In this document: piece after piece, positions 31,710 to 38,369 of the stretch
Position numbering within the stretch: position 1 is the first letter of the stretch
Layout: every line of letters starts with the position of its first letter
Assembly: GCA_902593075.1 (NCBI GenBank)
Contig: CACJHA010000007.1
Span: forward strand, 1 to 50,170
From: an uncultured Bacteroidota bacterium
Lineage (GTDB): Bacteria > Bacteroidota > Bacteroidia > Flavobacteriales > Flavobacteriaceae
Length of the DNA stretch: 50,170 nt
Direction of reading: 5' to 3'
Notes under the pieces: model-generated
The model's database searches: none
The model's input: only the letters and a program-made list of their open reading frames with translations
What the model was told of the DNA's origin: nothing
Program-made: the position numbers and the translations under genes

Positions 31710-32996
31710 ATGTTTAATAAAGTAAAAGAACACATAAAAAAATATGAATTAAAGGAAGGTGACATTATGCTTTTAGCATGTAGTGGAGGTATAGACAGTA
31801 TGGTTTTGTTTGATATTTTTAAAAAATTAAACATTGATTTTTGTGTGGCTCATTGTAATTTTATGCTTAGAGCAAATGAAAGTACCGGAGATGAAGAATT
31901 TGTTAAAGAAAAGTGTGAAGAAAACTCAATTACATTTTTTTCTAAATCATTTGAAACAAAAAAAGAGGCTTTACGATCTGGAAAATCAATTCAAATGATT
32001 GCTAGAGAATTAAGATATTCATGGATGAAAAATCTATTGAAAGACCATCATTTAAATTATATTGTTACAGCTCATAATTTGAATGACCAGTTTGAGACAT
32101 TTCTTATTAATTTCTCAAGAGGTTCAGGATTAAGGGGGCTTACAGGTATATCTGATTTTCCGATTTTAAGGCCTCTAAGATCTTTTTCAAGGCAGGATAT
32201 AGAATTGTATGCACATAAAAATGAAATTATCTGGAGAGAAGATTCATCAAATTCACAAAATTTATACACAAGAAATAAAATACGAAACAAAATTACTCCT
32301 GAGCTATTGAAAATATTCCCCAATTGGATTAATAATTCTAAAAAGAGCTTGATTTATTTAAATGAGTCAAAGCATGCCCTTCATAACATACTAAAAGCCT
32401 GGAAAAAAGAAAATTTTATTAAAAAAAAGGATTGCTTTATAATTAACAAAAAGGACTTAAAAAAACTACAACCAAACGAATTCTTTATTTATGAGATATT
32501 TTTTGAGTTTGGTTTTTTAAATGAGAAAGATCTGTTTTCAATTGTAAATTCTGAGACAGGAAAGTTTTTAGAGTCAAAAAAATACAGATTGATTTCTAAT
32601 AGAGACCATTTAATTTTACAAAAAATAAGCAAAAAAAGAATTAACGAATTTTATAAATGGGATAAAAAAAAATCCTTTAATAAGGATATAAAAATTGAAA
32701 TAGTTAAACAATCAAGAAATACAGGAGAATATGCTATTCTTGATAGATCAAAATTAGACTGTGAATTGGTAATTAGAAAATCAATTTCGGGTGACTTCTT
32801 CTATCCATCCGGAATGAAAGGAAAGAAAAAACTAAGTAAGTATTTTAAAGACGAAAAGTATTCTCTCGTGGATAAAGAAAAACAATGGTTACTCTGTTCT
32901 GCTGAAAAAATAGTATGGGTGATTGGAAAAAGAGTTGATCGAAGATTTGCAGCAGGAGAAAAACAAGAAAATCCCTTAATTTTGAAATTAAGTTGA
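31710..32996 (+). CDS. tilS: tRNA(Ile)-lysidine synthetase
   Basis: This enzyme modifies C34 of the CAU-anticodon tRNA-Ile to lysidine so that it reads AUA. The PP-loop is A-C-S-G-G-I-D-S-M (23-31). The family continues with V-A-H-C-N-F-M-L-R, A-R-E-L-R-Y-S-W and T-A-H-N-L-N-D-Q-F-E-T-F, then R-E-D-S-S-N and a Lys-rich C-terminal tRNA-binding part. At 428 residues it is normal length. It is the first gene of a plus-strand run, and its stop overlaps the TTG start of dsbD. It is divergent from the arginine operon. Confidence 0.96.
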   Translation: MFNKVKEHIKKYELKEGDIMLLACSGGIDSMVLFDIFKKLNIDFCVAHCNFMLRANESTGDEEFVKEKCEENSITFFSKSFETKKEALRSGKSIQMIARELRYSWMKNLLKDHHLNYIVTAHNLNDQFETFLINFSRGSGLRGLTGISDFPILRPLRSFSRQDIELYAHKNEIIWREDSSNSQNLYTRNKIRNKITPELLKIFPNWINNSKKSLIYLNESKHALHNILKAWKKENFIKKKDCFIINKKDLKKLQPNEFFIYEIFFEFGFLNEKDLFSIVNSETGKFLESKKYRLISNRDHLILQKISKKRINEFYKWDKKKSFNKDIKIEIVKQSRNTGEYAILDRSKLDCELVIRKSISGDFFYPSGMKGKKKLSKYFKDEKYSLVDKEKQWLLCSAEKIVWVIGKRVDRRFAAGEKQENPLILKLS

Positions 32997-34936
32997 AAAA
33001 AATACAAATATTCCTTTTTTGTTTAATCGCGTTTTCTTGTTATTCACAAGAGCCCGTAAAATGGGATTTTGCGGTTTCTGATATTAAAAATGGAGAATTA
33101 AAGCTTACAATTAAAGCTGAGATAGACGAAAATTGGCGTCTTTATTCTCCAAAAGTTTATGAAGATGGTCCCTTAGCTACCGAAATCAATTTTTTTTCAG
33201 ATACCTTAAACGTTAGAAAAAAAGGTTTTCTATTGTCATCAAAGCCGTTAGACGAATTCGATCCATATTTTTTTAAAAACATCTCTTTTTTTAAAAATGA
33301 GGCAGAATTTTACCAAACATTATATTATAGAAAGAGTTCAGGTGAGGCCATAAAAGGGGAGATATCCTACCAAGTTTGTGATGATAGGTTGTGTATATTT
33401 CGAACCAATCCTTTTAGCCTTTCTATTGAAGGACAAATATTAGAATCTAATCTTAAGGAGCTCAAAGAATATGATGTTATAAAAATTGATGAAATGACTC
33501 TAGATCTAAGTAATAAGGATTTGTTGTCATCATCCACTAATCTTGAATCCAAAAATCAATCATTTTTTTCTATTTTTTTATTAGGTGTTTTAAGTGGATT
33601 ACTTGCTCTATTAACTCCTTGTATTTTTCCAATGATTCCATTAACAGTTTCATTTTTTATAAAACAAAGTCAATCAAATCGAAAAGGAATTTTTGATGCA
33701 ATCTTGTATGGTTTTTTTATAATTTTAATCTATGGTTCTCTAAGCTTACCTTTTCATCTAGTTGATTCTTTAAATCCACAAATTTTAAATGATTTGTCCA
33801 CAAGTGTCTTTTTGAACCTGATATTTTTTATTGTATTTGTATTCTTTGCATTTTCTTTTTTTGGATATTATGAGTTAACCTTACCTGTATTTTTTTTAAA
33901 TAAAACTGAATCAAAGTCATCGATATCTAGCATAGTAGGTATTTTTTTTATGGCCTTGACCTTGGCACTCGTTTCCTTCTCATGTACTGGACCAATACTT
34001 GGTTCTTTATTGGTAGGATCGTTATCCATTAATGGAGGTGCTTATCAACTAACAGTTGGAATGCTTGGTTTTGGTATTTCATTAGCTCTCCCTTTTGCTA
34101 TATTGGCTCTTTTTCCAAATATGATTAAAAACTTACCAAAATCAGGTATTTGGATGAAAAAGTTCAAAATAACGTTAGGGTTTATTGAACTTGCGCTGGC
34201 ATTGAAATTTTTATCAAATGCAGATCTTGTTTCAGGATGGGGCTTGTTAAAAAGAGAAGTTTTTATTTTTATTTGGTTGGTTTTGTCTCTTCTTTTATCT
34301 CTGTATCTCCTTGGATTATTTAAAAATAGAGGTGAAAAAAAATCTAATATTGAAAAGATATTTGGTGTAATCAGCTTAATCTTCTCAATATATCTTTTAA
34401 ATGGTCTTTTAAACAAAGACAATAAATTGAAATTTGTTAGCGGATTTACACCTCCTGTTTTCTATAGCCTGTTTTCTAATGATAATGGTTGTCCCTTAAA
34501 TTTGGATTGTTATAAGGACTTTGATGCTGCTCGTGAAAAAGCAAATTCTCAAAACAAACCAATTTTAATTGATTTTACTGGATGGGCTTGTGTAAATTGT
34601 AGGAGAGTAGAGGAAAATATTTGGTCTAATCCAGAGGTTTACGATATTTTAAAAAGTAGTTTTATAATTAGTTCGCTTTATGTGGACGATAGAAAAAAAC
34701 TTAGTTCTGAAGAATCTTTTAGTTTTAAATTTCCAGATGGTAGGATTAAAAAAATTAGAACTATTGGTGAAAAGTGGTCAACGTTCCAGCTTCAAAATTT
34801 CAATTCTGCTTCACAGCCATATTACATTATAATTCATCCCAATGGAAGGATACTTAATTACCCTATACAATATACTTCTAGTATAAATAAATACAGAAAT
34901 TGGCTAAATAAAGGACTAGACAACTATGGTTTATGA
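32993..34936 (+). CDS. dsbD: DsbD-type thiol:disulfide interchange protein
   Basis: This protein carries electrons from cytoplasmic thioredoxin across the inner membrane to periplasmic disulfide reductases. In order it has a signal peptide (1-19), an N-terminal alpha domain with the paired Cys C-D-D-R-L-C (about 129-134), and an eight-helix membrane domain. The two membrane redox cysteines lie in L-L-T-P-C-I-F-P-M-I-P-L-T and V-S-F-S-C-T-G-P-I-L-G. The C-terminal thioredoxin-like gamma domain has W-A-C-V-N-C-R. The three Cys pairs are thus complete. The start is TTG at 32993, overlapping the tilS stop by four bases; no ATG gives the signal peptide. It ends in an ATGA overlap with the transporter gene. 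Confidence 0.93.
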   Translation: MKKIQIFLFCLIAFSCYSQEPVKWDFAVSDIKNGELKLTIKAEIDENWRLYSPKVYEDGPLATEINFFSDTLNVRKKGFLLSSKPLDEFDPYFFKNISFFKNEAEFYQTLYYRKSSGEAIKGEISYQVCDDRLCIFRTNPFSLSIEGQILESNLKELKEYDVIKIDEMTLDLSNKDLLSSSTNLESKNQSFFSIFLLGVLSGLLALLTPCIFPMIPLTVSFFIKQSQSNRKGIFDAILYGFFIILIYGSLSLPFHLVDSLNPQILNDLSTSVFLNLIFFIVFVFFAFSFFGYYELTLPVFFLNKTESKSSISSIVGIFFMALTLALVSFSCTGPILGSLLVGSLSINGGAYQLTVGMLGFGISLALPFAILALFPNMIKNLPKSGIWMKKFKITLGFIELALALKFLSNADLVSGWGLLKREVFIFIWLVLSLLLSLYLLGLFKNRGEKKSNIEKIFGVISLIFSIYLLNGLLNKDNKLKFVSGFTPPVFYSLFSNDNGCPLNLDCYKDFDAAREKANSQNKPILIDFTGWACVNCRRVEENIWSNPEVYDILKSSFIISSLYVDDRKKLSSEESFSFKFPDGRIKKIRTIGEKWSTFQLQNFNSASQPYYIIIHPNGRILNYPIQYTSSINKYRNWLNKGLDNYGL

Positions 34937-36123
34937 TTGGGAGATTTTTTTTTAATCCTGCCTTTGTAGTCACGGCTGCCTTTATCGGTCCTGGTACAAT
35001 AACGATGTGTATACTTACGGGTACAAATTATGGTTTTGATTTACTATGGGCCGTTTTATGTTCCACACTAATAACAATATTTATTCAAAATATTGCTGCT
35101 AGAATATCTTTTTATTCAAAAAAGGGTTTAGCTACAACTATTCTTAACAATGAAAAAAATAGGACTTTAAAAATTTTATTGACATGCTTAATTTTTTCAT
35201 CAATTTTCATAGGTAATTCTGCCTACGAAGCGGGTAATTTATCAGGCACTCTTATAGGTACCAACGGGATTCTGAATTTGTTATCTATTAATCTTTCCAA
35301 TTTTATTCAGCTAATGATACTATGTATTGTTATATCCATTTTAATTTTCATAAACAATTTCAAAATTTTATCAAATATATTGATGCTCATCGTTGGATTT
35401 ATGAGTTTATCTTTTCTGATATCTTCTTTTCTTACTAAACCAGATTTTATGGAAATTTTAAAAGGTTTATTTATTCCTAGATTCAATTCAAATAACATTT
35501 TAAATATTGTTGGTATAGTGGGTACTACTGTGGTTCCTTACAATTTATTTTTACACGCGGCACTAGTAAATAAAAAGTATAAAGATATTAAGAGTATTAA
35601 GTTTGATACATTTATTGCTGTAACTATAGGAGGTGTAATATCTATTTGTATAATAGTCACTGCAGCTTCAATACAGGGGGCTGATATTGTAAATCCATCT
35701 GAAATTGGTAGTTTATTGGAACCACTTTACGGAAATATTTCTAATTGGATTATTAACTTAGGGTTTTTTTGTGCTGGATTAACTTCTTCAATAACGGCTC
35801 CAATTGCAGCTGCAATTATTTTTTGTGAATGTTTTAATTTAAAATTAAATGGATTTTATTACAAGTTAGTATCCATTTCAGTCGTATTGATTGGATTTAT
35901 ATTTTCTTCAATCTATAAACTACCAATTCAGATTATCTTGTTTGCTCAAGTTGCTAACGGGATTTTACTTCCGGTACTTGGGGTATTACTTTTTGTTTTA
36001 ATTAATAAAAAAACAAATGATTCTCCCAAAAAAAATGATTTTGATAAAATTATTCTTTTATTGATTGAGTTATTTTTTATCTTCTTGTGTGTGTCTAGTA
36101 TTTTAAAAATATTTAATGTATAG
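34933..36123 (+). CDS. NRAMP-fold transporter lacking metal ligands, linked to 5-oxoprolinase genes
   Basis: A 396-residue, ~11-helix membrane protein of the NRAMP/SLC11 fold (opening F-N-P-A-F...A-A-F; helix 6 T-T-V-V-P-Y-N-L-F-L-H-A-A-L-V). True NRAMP metal carriers have D-P-G-N in helix 1 and M-P-H in helix 6. Here these are G-P-G-T (Gly19, Thr22) and V-P-Y (Val201), so the Asp, Asn and Met that coordinate Mn2+/Fe2+ are all gone. The gene overlaps dsbD by 4 bases and pxpA by 8. In Bacillus subtilis the NRAMP-like ycsG also sits in the ycsF/kipIA (pxp) operon. I infer an organic or non-transition-metal substrate connected with 5-oxoproline, perhaps pyroglutamate itself. Mn2+ uptake is unlikely. 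Confidence 0.82.
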   Translation: MIGRFFFNPAFVVTAAFIGPGTITMCILTGTNYGFDLLWAVLCSTLITIFIQNIAARISFYSKKGLATTILNNEKNRTLKILLTCLIFSSIFIGNSAYEAGNLSGTLIGTNGILNLLSINLSNFIQLMILCIVISILIFINNFKILSNILMLIVGFMSLSFLISSFLTKPDFMEILKGLFIPRFNSNNILNIVGIVGTTVVPYNLFLHAALVNKKYKDIKSIKFDTFIAVTIGGVISICIIVTAASIQGADIVNPSEIGSLLEPLYGNISNWIINLGFFCAGLTSSITAPIAAAIIFCECFNLKLNGFYYKLVSISVVLIGFIFSSIYKLPIQIILFAQVANGILLPVLGVLLFVLINKKTNDSPKKNDFDKIILLLIELFFIFLCVSSILKIFNV

Positions 36124-36841
36124 TATAGATTTAAATTGTGATTTAGGGGAAGGTACGGGTAACGACCCTTTTGTAATGCCCTTTATATCATCATGTTCAA
36201 TTGCGTGTGGTGGTCACTTTGGTAACAAAAGAACTATAAAAGAAGCCATTGAACTAGCTGAAAAACACAATGTTAAAACAGGTGCACACCCATCTTATTT
36301 GGACACAAAATTTTTTGGCAGGAAGTCACTTGACATACTATTAAAAGAGTTACAAGATTCTATTAGATTTCAATTGGATCTATTCTTCAATATTTCAGCT
36401 AACTCTACTCATATTAAGCCACACGGAGCGCTTTACAATGACTTGTTTTATGATTTAGAAAAAGCAGAGGCTGTAGTTGAAGTTTTTAAGGAATATGGTA
36501 ATTTATATGTTTTCTGTCAGCCATCCAGTAAATTATCAACCGTTTTAACTTCACAAAAAGTTAATCAAATTCATGAAGGTTTTGGTGACAGGCTTTATAG
36601 CACAAATGGAACTTTGTTATCTAGAAAAAACCCATCTTCAGTTCTTGAAAGCAAAAAAAAAATATTGGATCAGGTTACAAAACTTGTAAAGGAAAGTTCA
36701 GTTATAACGGAAGATAACAAAAGTCTTAAGTTGAAAGTTCAGACTATTTGTTTACACGGAGACAACAAGAATGTAATTAATAATATTTCATATCTAGTTA
36801 AAGAATTAAAACAATTATCCATATATGTTAAATCTTACTGA
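36116..36841 (+). CDS. pxpA: 5-oxoprolinase subunit A (LamB/YcsF family)
   Basis: Part of the ATP-dependent PxpABC enzyme that opens 5-oxoproline (pyroglutamate) to glutamate. Family motifs are D-L-N-C-D-L-G-E-G (4-12), S-C-S-I-A-C-G-G-H-F-G, G-A-H-P-S-Y, the region around F-F-G-R-K, and T-H-I-K-P-H-G-A-L-Y-N. The C-terminal I-C-L-H-G-D is also present. At 241 residues it is normal length. It overlaps the transporter by eight bases and pxpB by 17, so the operon is very compact. Confidence 0.94.
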   Translation: MYSIDLNCDLGEGTGNDPFVMPFISSCSIACGGHFGNKRTIKEAIELAEKHNVKTGAHPSYLDTKFFGRKSLDILLKELQDSIRFQLDLFFNISANSTHIKPHGALYNDLFYDLEKAEAVVEVFKEYGNLYVFCQPSSKLSTVLTSQKVNQIHEGFGDRLYSTNGTLLSRKNPSSVLESKKKILDQVTKLVKESSVITEDNKSLKLKVQTICLHGDNKNVINNISYLVKELKQLSIYVKSY

Positions 36842-37520
36842 ATTTTATTATTTAAACTCAACAACAATTACATTTAGTTTTAGTGAATGTAAAACAGATA
36901 ACCTTATAGGTCTTTTTCAAAATTTGAAAAAAAACAGTAAAATTATCGAGGTTGTAACTACTGATCATAGTATGACGTTATTTTTGAGAGAAGCTATGAA
37001 CCACGATAAGATTCTAGATATTATTAATCAAAGTATAAATTCAAACAAAAAGAATCATAATAAATCAAAAACCTTCCATCTTCCAATTTGTTTTGATGAT
37101 TCATTTCATGATGATATTTTAAATCATTATGATGGTGATTTAAAACTTACCCGAAAATTTAAAGAATCATTTTTAAAAAACAAATTTACTCTTGAGTATT
37201 ACGGCTTTTTACCAGGCTTTGCATATTTCTCTGGTTTAGAATCAAAATTACATTTACCAAGGAAGAAAATACCCAGTAGTAAAATAGATAAAGGGACTGT
37301 CGCAATTGGCGGAGAATATGTTGGCATTTATCCACAAGATAGTCCAGGAGGCTGGAACTGTATTGCTAATTGCCCAATTCCGTTAGTTGATTTTGGTTCT
37401 AATCTAAAAATTAACATTAACGTATTTGATCAAGTAATTTTTGAAGAAATTGAATTTGAAAATTATAAGAAAATTAAGTTGGATTATGAGCTCGATGTTT
37501 ATGATTTTAAAATTCTTTAA
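36825..37520 (+). CDS. pxpB: 5-oxoprolinase subunit B (KipI/allophanate hydrolase subunit 1 family)
   Basis: The KipI-family C-terminal half is clear: Y-Y-G-F-L-P-G-F-A-Y-F-S-G-L, L-P-R-K-K-I-P, G-T-V-A-I-G-G-E-Y-V-G-I-Y-P, S-P-G-G-W-N-C-I. The N-terminal half is poorly conserved, as usual in the family. At 231 residues it is complete. It ends immediately before the pxpC ATG with no gap. PxpB and PxpC together form the cyclophilin-like kinase partner that activates the 5-oxoproline ring for PxpA. Confidence 0.92.
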   Translation: MLNLTEFYYLNSTTITFSFSECKTDNLIGLFQNLKKNSKIIEVVTTDHSMTLFLREAMNHDKILDIINQSINSNKKNHNKSKTFHLPICFDDSFHDDILNHYDGDLKLTRKFKESFLKNKFTLEYYGFLPGFAYFSGLESKLHLPRKKIPSSKIDKGTVAIGGEYVGIYPQDSPGGWNCIANCPIPLVDFGSNLKININVFDQVIFEEIEFENYKKIKLDYELDVYDFKIL

Positions 37521-38369
37521 ATGATAGAAGTCATTTCATCAGGATATTTTACTACAATTCAGGATTCTGGAAGAAAAGCCTACAGACATTTGGGAGTTCC
37601 CATATCAGGTCCTATGGACTTGAATTCATTTTACCTGGCAAATTTATTGTTGCCGGGGCTTGATAGTGATTCGGTTTTTGAATGTACATTAATAGGTCCA
37701 AAATTGAAACTCATGTGCAATTCTAGGTTTGTTATCACGGGAGCTGAGTTTGACTCATACTTGGATAACGAGCCAATCGAAAATAATAAGGTTTATTCTT
37801 TTCGAGCTGGACAAATTCTAAATTTAGGCCGAGTGAAGACTGGTTTAAGATGCTACTTAAAATTTGAAGGAACTTTTAACATTCCTAAAATTTTAAACAG
37901 CAAATCTTTTTATTATCCCATAACAAAATCAAAATCTATAAATGATGGTGAAAAGTATGGCTTTATGTCTAAAACTTTAGATATTAATTCTAAAGTCATA
38001 AACTTAAAGATTTCTAAAAATTCATTTTCTAAAAAAACTTTATTTGCCAAGCCTGGACCGGATTGGGACTTTCTAACCGATGAAATTAAAAAACAAATAA
38101 TAAATGAGATTTATTGTATAAAAAGTCAAAATAGAATGGGGTACAGGTTGACTTCAAAACTTAAAAATGATTTTTATAATCTAAGAAGTAAAGTAGTAAT
38201 TCCTGGTATAGTTCAATTTACACCTGGAGGCGAGATAATTATTGCAACTGCTGATTGTCAAGTTACTGGAGGGTATTTGCAAATTCTTTTATTGACTCTC
38301 GATTCTCTCTCAAATCTCGTACAAAAGCCGGAAGGTTCTGAGGTAAAATTTACTTTATTAGATAATTGA
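37521..38369 (+). CDS. pxpC: 5-oxoprolinase subunit C (KipA/biotin-dependent carboxyltransferase-like family)
   Basis: KipA-family signatures are F-T-T-I-Q-D-S-G-R-K-A-Y-R-H-L-G-V-P-I-S-G-P-M-D near the N-terminus, and N-R-M-G-Y-R-L and I-V-Q-F-T-P-G-G-E-I-I-I near the end. I-T-G-A-E is also visible. At 282 residues it is at the short end for the family. It is the last gene of the tilS-dsbD-transporter-pxpABC run and converges on an aldehyde dehydrogenase gene with nine bases between. No clear terminator is visible there. Confidence 0.92.
   Translation: MIEVISSGYFTTIQDSGRKAYRHLGVPISGPMDLNSFYLANLLLPGLDSDSVFECTLIGPKLKLMCNSRFVITGAEFDSYLDNEPIENNKVYSFRAGQILNLGRVKTGLRCYLKFEGTFNIPKILNSKSFYYPITKSKSINDGEKYGFMSKTLDINSKVINLKISKNSFSKKTLFAKPGPDWDFLTDEIKKQIINEIYCIKSQNRMGYRLTSKLKNDFYNLRSKVVIPGIVQFTPGGEIIIATADCQVTGGYLQILLLTLDSLSNLVQKPEGSEVKFTLLDN

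Follow-up and report, generated by a model that had tools for sequence, protein, structure and literature searches.

NRAMP-fold proteins encoded within operons for the 5-oxoprolinase PxpABC are known from Corynebacterium glutamicum (PxpT), Bacillus subtilis (YcsG, also called MntG) and Clostridioides difficile (PxpG). In C. glutamicum, deletion of pxpT was reported in 2026 to stop growth on 5-oxoproline, and a plasmid copy restored it (PMC13274462). The same paper cites Niehaus 2017 for the observation that deletion of ycsG prevented B. subtilis from using 5-oxoproline as nitrogen source; for this phenotype a polar effect is not ruled out according to PMC10448178. Here we describe a gene in a like setting in a window of 50,170 nucleotides (the whole stretch of DNA that was analysed) from an uncultured bacterium of the Flavobacteriaceae (contig CACJHA010000007.1). 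Its product is probably a LeuT-fold secondary importer of 5-oxoproline, possibly of cyclic amides more widely, that feeds PxpABC. We infer substrate, direction and site; import of 5-oxoproline rather than of a metal is the most likely reading because the metal-binding residues are lost and because the relatives of the protein accompany different enzymes of a similar type.

The gene (34933..36123, + strand, ATG start, 396 amino acids) encodes a member of the Pfam Nramp family (PF01566, 223.5 bits against a cut-off of 29.8) and is followed on the same strand by all three oxoprolinase genes: pxpA for subunit A of the LamB/YcsF family (36116..36841; PF03746, 218.9 bits, above cut-off), pxpB for subunit B (36825..37520; PF02682, 121.8 bits, above cut-off, and TIGR00370, 81.4 bits, below the curated cut-off) and pxpC for subunit C (37521..38369; PF02626, 179.7 bits, above cut-off, and TIGR00724, 183.6 bits, below the curated cut-off). 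The 8-bp overlap with pxpA described in the original prediction spans 36116-36123; pxpA and pxpB overlap by 17 bp, and pxpB and pxpC abut without overlap. The same prediction spoke of a transporter fused into the operon, which is right as far as overlapping genes are concerned; no fused protein is encoded, and the overlaps extend upstream to a tilS-like gene. In a search among 60 relatives the gene was found in 7/7 genomes of the genus, with 88-94% identity in the five complete copies besides that of the window and one copy ending at a contig edge. The ratio of nonsynonymous to synonymous substitution rates (dN/dS) within the genus is 0.12-0.15 (three pairs), and together with the presence in all seven genomes this argues against a chance feature. 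The same search gave some NRAMP match in 23 further genomes, 16 of them at 41-46% identity.

Alignment to Escherichia coli MntH (NC_000913) places Gly19 at Asp34 and Thr22 at Asn37 of transmembrane helix 1 (TM1), and Thr198, Val201 and Tyr203 at Ala206, Met209 and His211 of TM6. The codons for Gly19-Pro20-Gly21-Thr22, which replace Asp-Pro-Gly-Asn, lie at 34987..34998 (+), and those for Thr198-Thr-Val-Val201-Pro-Tyr203, which replace Ala-Thr-(Val/Ile)-Met-Pro-His, at 35524..35541 (+), in agreement with the G-P-G-T and the valine in place of the helix-6 methionine that had been read from the DNA at the outset. In TM3, Asn102 stands for Glu112 and Glu99 for Asp109, and the TM10 glutamine is retained (Gln353 in MntH, Gln339 in the window). 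The SLC11 metal-transporter signature, DxxN in TM1 and A/CxxM in TM6 (PMC8806188), is therefore replaced by GPGT and T198..V201; of the NRMT site, DxxG-TxxA/T, the Asp position holds Gly19, the Gly position Thr22 and the Ala/Thr position Val201. Among the residues of the SLC11 proton path, the TM1 Asp, TM6 His211 and TM3 Glu112 are all replaced. PMC8806188 describes the TM1 Asp as conserved in all SLC11 proteins and reports that mutating it in EleNRMT severely impairs transport.

For comparison across genomes we sorted the proteins by motif: GPG[T/S] together with TT in TM6 marks the window clade, DPGN marks MntH, and GPGF marks a further group that we call lineage B. Glycine at the Asp position is thus given by definition; evidence free of this choice comes solely from the TM6 Val, Tyr203, Asn102 and Gln339 and from the tree. 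The TM6 Met position is Val in 172/172 clade rows, the window included, and in 156/156 rows each the Glu112 position is Asn, the His211 position is Tyr and the TM10 Gln is kept; TM6 His208 is nearly invariant among 40 clade rows. MntH rows chosen by DPGN also carry Met-Pro-His in 34/34 cases.

An AlphaFold2 model of the window protein, built with 39 clade relatives, has a mean predicted local distance difference test (pLDDT) score of 90.2 and a predicted template-modelling (pTM) score of 0.90. It would place the central site, which the original prediction had singled out for inspection, at helix breaks in TM1 (residues 18-19) and TM6 (200-201), where substrates of the LeuT fold bind. In fold searches with the model the nearest solved structure is DraNramp (6c3i; Z 47.3, root-mean-square deviation 2.5 over 373 residues), followed by EleNRMT (Z 45.4), and further carriers of the LeuT fold, KimA and the amino-acid carrier ApcT among them, score about Z 31. 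The integrative model of B. subtilis YcsG (9a52) reaches Z 40.6 at 20-22% identity to the window model (22% by Foldseek); it was absent from the sequence search of solved structures and was found by the fold searches only.

In a tree built from 60 PF01566 proteins after thinning by identity and removal of one extreme branch (a companion tree has 61 rows), the GPGT group is a single clade with support 97/97, recovered in 96% of 200 bootstrap trees, as would be expected of the separate transporter clade that had been proposed. It is separate from MntH, from NRMT and from the YcsG-like lineage: the MntH clade (100/100, five MntH rows) and the lineage-B clade (100/100) both exclude the window protein. 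A joint clade of the GPGT group with lineage B is not rejected in the approximately unbiased (AU) test (p 0.29).

Lineage B, drawn from records of Bacillus badius, Fusobacterium, Deinococcus and Klebsiella plasmids and from nine Bacteroidota genomes, carries GPGF in TM1 and GTVGGY in TM6, is without the TM10 Gln and shares 17-21% identity with the window protein, which has neither motif. Its gene orders are pxpA-NRAMP-hydro-lyase in Bacillus badius and pxpA-NRAMP-pxpB-pxpC in Fusobacterium (L155). We take YcsI to be a hydro-lyase of the kind found in the Bacillus badius locus. The pxpAGBC order reported for PxpG of C. difficile (PMC13274462) can be compared with that of Fusobacterium. From gene order, and because YcsG is 20-22% identical to the window model, we infer that YcsG and PxpT themselves belong to lineage B. 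That the window protein is simply YcsG was rejected by tree, motif and identity, which assign it to another lineage. The parallel with B. subtilis ycsG that had been drawn earlier consequently stands for the setting, an NRAMP-fold gene beside pxp genes, and is looser than suggested for the protein, because YcsG-like settings hold GPGF/GTVGGY proteins of a separate, long-branched clade. Since the window protein falls outside the PxpT/YcsG lineage, it represents a second NRAMP lineage tied to oxoprolinases. As a side observation, 93 Klebsiella plasmid records match the lineage-B NRAMP; in the one whose neighbourhood was read (L160, NZ_CP012994 76116-87276) it is accompanied by pxpA, urea-amidolyase-type pxpBC and a biotin carboxylase gene.

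The clade appears to have been described before under another name. Cellier mimicked an Slc11 'orphan outgroup' by substitutions, D to G and N to T in TM1, with Y and N in helix 3 and T, V and Y in helix 6 (PMC9606685, PMC10606218), and the window clade has these residues as G19, T22, Y98, N102, T198, V201 and Y203. On the strength of these shared helix 1, 3 and 6 residues, compared through text passages rather than sequences, the window clade is very probably this outgroup. The passages of the two papers that we consulted propose no substrate for it, and the term 'oxoprol' does not occur in PMC9606685.

The genomic partners of the clade were analysed in a draw of 296 Bacteroidota genomes. Clade members fall into two tiers, 36 genomes at 452 bits or more and 26 at 283-359 bits, with the next match at 227.5 bits; the borders were placed at visible gaps after viewing the lists. 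All 62 members were read and the motif is present in each, and G178, below the gap, has the motif and PxpA too. In 31/36 close-member genomes, the window included, the clade gene lies upstream of pxpA on the same strand at a distance of at most 1.2 kb. Four further genomes (G053, G076, G111, G194) have pxpA located elsewhere, and in G282, without a PxpA match, a gene for a fused HyuA-HyuB protein of 1281 amino acids converges on the NRAMP gene from about 620 bp away. The fused gene lies at L257:8825-12667 (-) and the NRAMP gene at L257:6929-8206 (+); in the five other genomes of its genus in the draw, the transporter has pxpABC next to it. PxpABC has apparently been replaced here by the fused HyuA-HyuB. 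In the second tier hyuA/hyuB, or the fused form, is adjacent in nine genomes and within about 5 kb in four, HyuB is encoded elsewhere in eight and PxpA elsewhere in five.

Taken together, PxpA or HyuB is encoded in 62/62 genomes with the clade versus 39/234 others (Fisher 3e-37, the genomes not being independent). The relation also appears within families, with 10/10 versus 2/20 in the family of the window (f1) and 27/27 versus 4/8 in a second family (f23; only genomes with some NRAMP match counted). The counts leave out a weak PxpA match in G106, which would raise the number on the non-clade side by one, and they disregard a second, short PF03746 match in G186. An MntH-scoring protein (359 bits or more) occurs in 108 genomes, three of which also have the clade; 32 of these proteins were read, all with DPGN, and PxpA or HyuB is encoded in 11/105 genomes that have such a protein without the clade. 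Seen from the enzyme, 57 Bacteroidota pxpA loci including that of the window comprise 31 with a clade member upstream within 1.2 kb, nine with lineage-B NRAMPs (eight adjacent, one about 2.4 kb away) and one with an unclassified fragment at a contig end.

Outside this draw, we read 80 named loci. They are the best of at least 594 confirmed stretches and were selected with peptide patterns of which the motif is a part. Of these loci, 32 have pxpA in the stretch, among others in Kangiella, Flavobacteriaceae, Streptomyces sp. TRM49041, Clostridia, Alkalihalobacillus and Microbulbifer; four have hyu genes, two in haloarchaea and two in Bacteroidetes metagenome-assembled genomes (L177, L179) with a fused HyuAB gene; and 44 have neither. 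In haloarchaea, hyuA lies directly downstream of the clade member in 7/8 loci read (Natrononativus is without it); the genes abut in the four with both annotated and are adjacent open frames in the other three. Six of 23 matching haloarchaeal plasmid records were read. In plasmid records of Pseudoalteromonas sp. THAF3 and Qipengyuania citrea neither enzyme was found near the clade member. In a draw of 119 genomes from the order of a Pseudoalteromonas genome (clade genomes at 444 bits or more, next 217, border again set at the gap after viewing), PxpA is encoded in 10/10 genomes with the clade versus 53/109 without (p 0.0015). Partners differ between sister rows at firmly supported forks of the 61-row tree, namely L257 (Hyu) and L128 (Pxp) with support 100/99, and L203 (Pxp) and the haloarchaea with 100/98. 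The coupling to PxpABC originally proposed for this clade is thus matched in several phyla by linkage to, or co-occurrence with, oxoprolinase-type enzymes.

The fused and split Hyu partners carry Hydantoinase_A/B domains, Pfam families other than those of PxpABC. Members of the Hyu family either use ATP to open cyclic amides or carboxylate ketones. Because one clade pairs with enzymes from different families that have in common the opening of lactams or cyclic imides, a shared organic substrate is suggested, and with PxpABC as a partner this would narrow to 5-oxoproline. We therefore propose that 5-oxoproline (pyroglutamate) would be imported and passed to the ATP-dependent PxpABC of the same operon, which opens the ring to glutamate. 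With Asp replaced by Gly in TM1, the unwound GPGT segment could offer backbone amides and a hydroxyl to the carboxylate, as in amino-acid carriers of the APC type; in GkApcT, TM1 backbone amides contact the substrate carboxylate (PMC5803215). Asn102, Tyr98, Thr198, Tyr203 and Gln339 would line a larger, neutral pocket. Exported Bacteroidetes proteins are reported to carry a pyroglutamate N-terminus (PMC5837995, PMC10653852), a possible source of the substrate in Bacteroidota.

Several observations weigh against import of 5-oxoproline. In B. subtilis, overexpression of ycsG raised cellular Mn, YcsG was reported as an Mn2+ importer in 2023, and deletion of ycsG together with mntH and mntA succeeded only when an ectopic copy of ycsG was present (PMC10448178); our literature search found no transport measurement for any member of the window clade. 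HyuAB types include hydantoinases, caprolactamase and carboxylases, so that the shared substrate could be broader than 5-oxoproline, the more so because the solved chain closest to the L257 fusion is named N-methylhydantoinase; next comes 6yra_A, named 5-oxoprolinase, and 6yra_B (Hydantoinase) is sixth. Fisher p-values overstate the significance of the co-occurrence because the genomes are related, and PxpA is common anyway in the gammaproteobacterial order, being present in 63/119 genomes. An NRAMP of this kind at each pxp locus was considered and rejected, since 16/57 Bacteroidota pxpA loci have none within about 7 kb. Finally, the 44/80 named loci without pxp or hyu genes in the stretch are, by record title, all but two gammaproteobacterial. 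That these unlinked copies break the rule was rejected: 21/21 genomes of unlinked members that were searched encode PxpA or HyuB elsewhere (20 PxpA; Endozoicomonas sp. G2_2 HyuB).

One alternative, which we regard as unlikely, is that the protein imports a divalent metal (Mn2+ or Mg2+) as cofactor for the neighbouring oxoprolinase or hydantoinase. Family names and fold speak for it, as does YcsG, likewise encoded in a pxp operon, with its reported Mn2+ import and MntR control (PMC10448178), and the co-occurrence would also follow if PxpABC and HyuAB needed the same metal. All 156 clade rows moreover keep the TM10 Gln, a proposed ion contact in the occluded state (PMC8806188). However, none of the Asp, Asn and Met ligands remains, and the Asp is kept even by MntH, NRMT and NRAT (PMC8806188); genomes with MntH lack a comparable link to oxoprolinases; and the work on YcsG presumably concerns another lineage. 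The original prediction had warned that annotation as an Mn2+ transporter would be wrong. Such a label is indeed assigned, as NF037982 ('Nramp family divalent metal transporter') matches at 62.3 bits against a cut-off of 50, and it is probably mistaken.

Another organic substrate of the same chemistry (hydantoins, lactams or imides), or export of glutamate or 5-oxoproline, is likewise improbable. The HyuAB-type partners fit such a substrate, as does the gene of the arylmalonate-decarboxylase/Asp-Glu-hydantoin-racemase family that stands behind the hyu genes in some haloarchaeal loci, and the best NCBIfam models for the HyuA and HyuB partners are caprolactamase subunits, all below cut-off. PxpABC, a 5-oxoprolinase by published work, is nevertheless the partner in most linked loci read, and the simplest substrate common to both kinds of enzyme is 5-oxoproline. 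That a gene of unrelated function is kept near pxp through operon inheritance is very doubtful: many Gammaproteobacteria do carry the clade gene unlinked, but the partner is swapped across enzyme families, co-occurrence holds even without linkage and dN/dS in the genus is low.

The remaining genes of the locus and several further PF01566 proteins are recorded for completeness. Upstream of the NRAMP gene lie a gene for a DsbD-like thiol:disulfide interchange protein (32993..34936, +) and a tilS-like gene named by eye (31710-32996, +), each overlapping the next gene by 4 bp. The DsbD-like neighbour is conserved at six other loci of the genus and was not seen in about 1.4 kb upstream at six loci of other genera; it is perhaps co-transcribed with the NRAMP gene while standing outside its function. 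Besides the window protein, the genome of the window (65% complete) encodes just one other PF01566 protein, which is very divergent and lies on another contig. This protein (contig C51, L002:1390-2604 (-), 49 bits) has GVSH in TM1 and WMPAPL in TM6 and so matches neither the metal nor the GPG signature; its terminal branch in the tree measures about 7, and it adjoins lipA-like and sigma-factor-like genes (by eye). PF01566 proteins with GTGS/TT.... or GPGS/SSFSI[AV] (L086, L087, L091, L092, L278) fall outside all named groups. At L248:4878-7667 (-) a frame of 930 amino acids has its NRAMP domain from about residue 511; no Pfam match was found for the N-terminal extension of about 510 residues, which is probably an open frame by chance.

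Compared with the SLC11 Mn2+ and Fe2+ transporters, the window protein shares the Pfam family and, in the model, the fold, whereas its clade is separate and the TM1 and TM6 ligand side chains and several proton-path residues are replaced. With the NRMT Mg2+ transporters it likewise shares the predicted fold, as well as a Thr at the TM6 Ala position; NRMT proteins, however, retain the TM1 Asp (PMC8806188), which the window clade lacks. If our reading holds, organic-acid carriers would be the closest non-metal relatives of NRAMP proteins, and a handful of TM1, TM3 and TM6 residues would switch one fold between a metal and an organic substrate. It would also bear on the published dispute over whether YcsG imports Mn2+ or 5-oxoproline, and it suggests that many genes of Bacteroidota, Gammaproteobacteria and haloarchaea are wrongly labelled 'Nramp family divalent metal transporter'. 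For the PF01566 branch described as orphan a substrate can now be proposed: on balance we favour the view that the 'orphan outgroup' consists of widespread importers of 5-oxoproline or cyclic amides in bacteria and haloarchaea, associated interchangeably with PxpABC, split HyuA-HyuB or fused HyuAB. A literature search, with subscription papers mostly outside its reach, found no NRAMP protein tied jointly to oxoprolinase and hydantoinase, and among the matches listed only PMC13274462 concerns such a transporter. The idea that NRAMP-fold proteins of the PxpT/YcsG kind may carry 5-oxoproline and the existence of the separate group are already in print; new is that the partner of this clade is not only PxpABC, as in the PxpT, YcsG and PxpG operons, but also split HyuA-HyuB or fused HyuAB.

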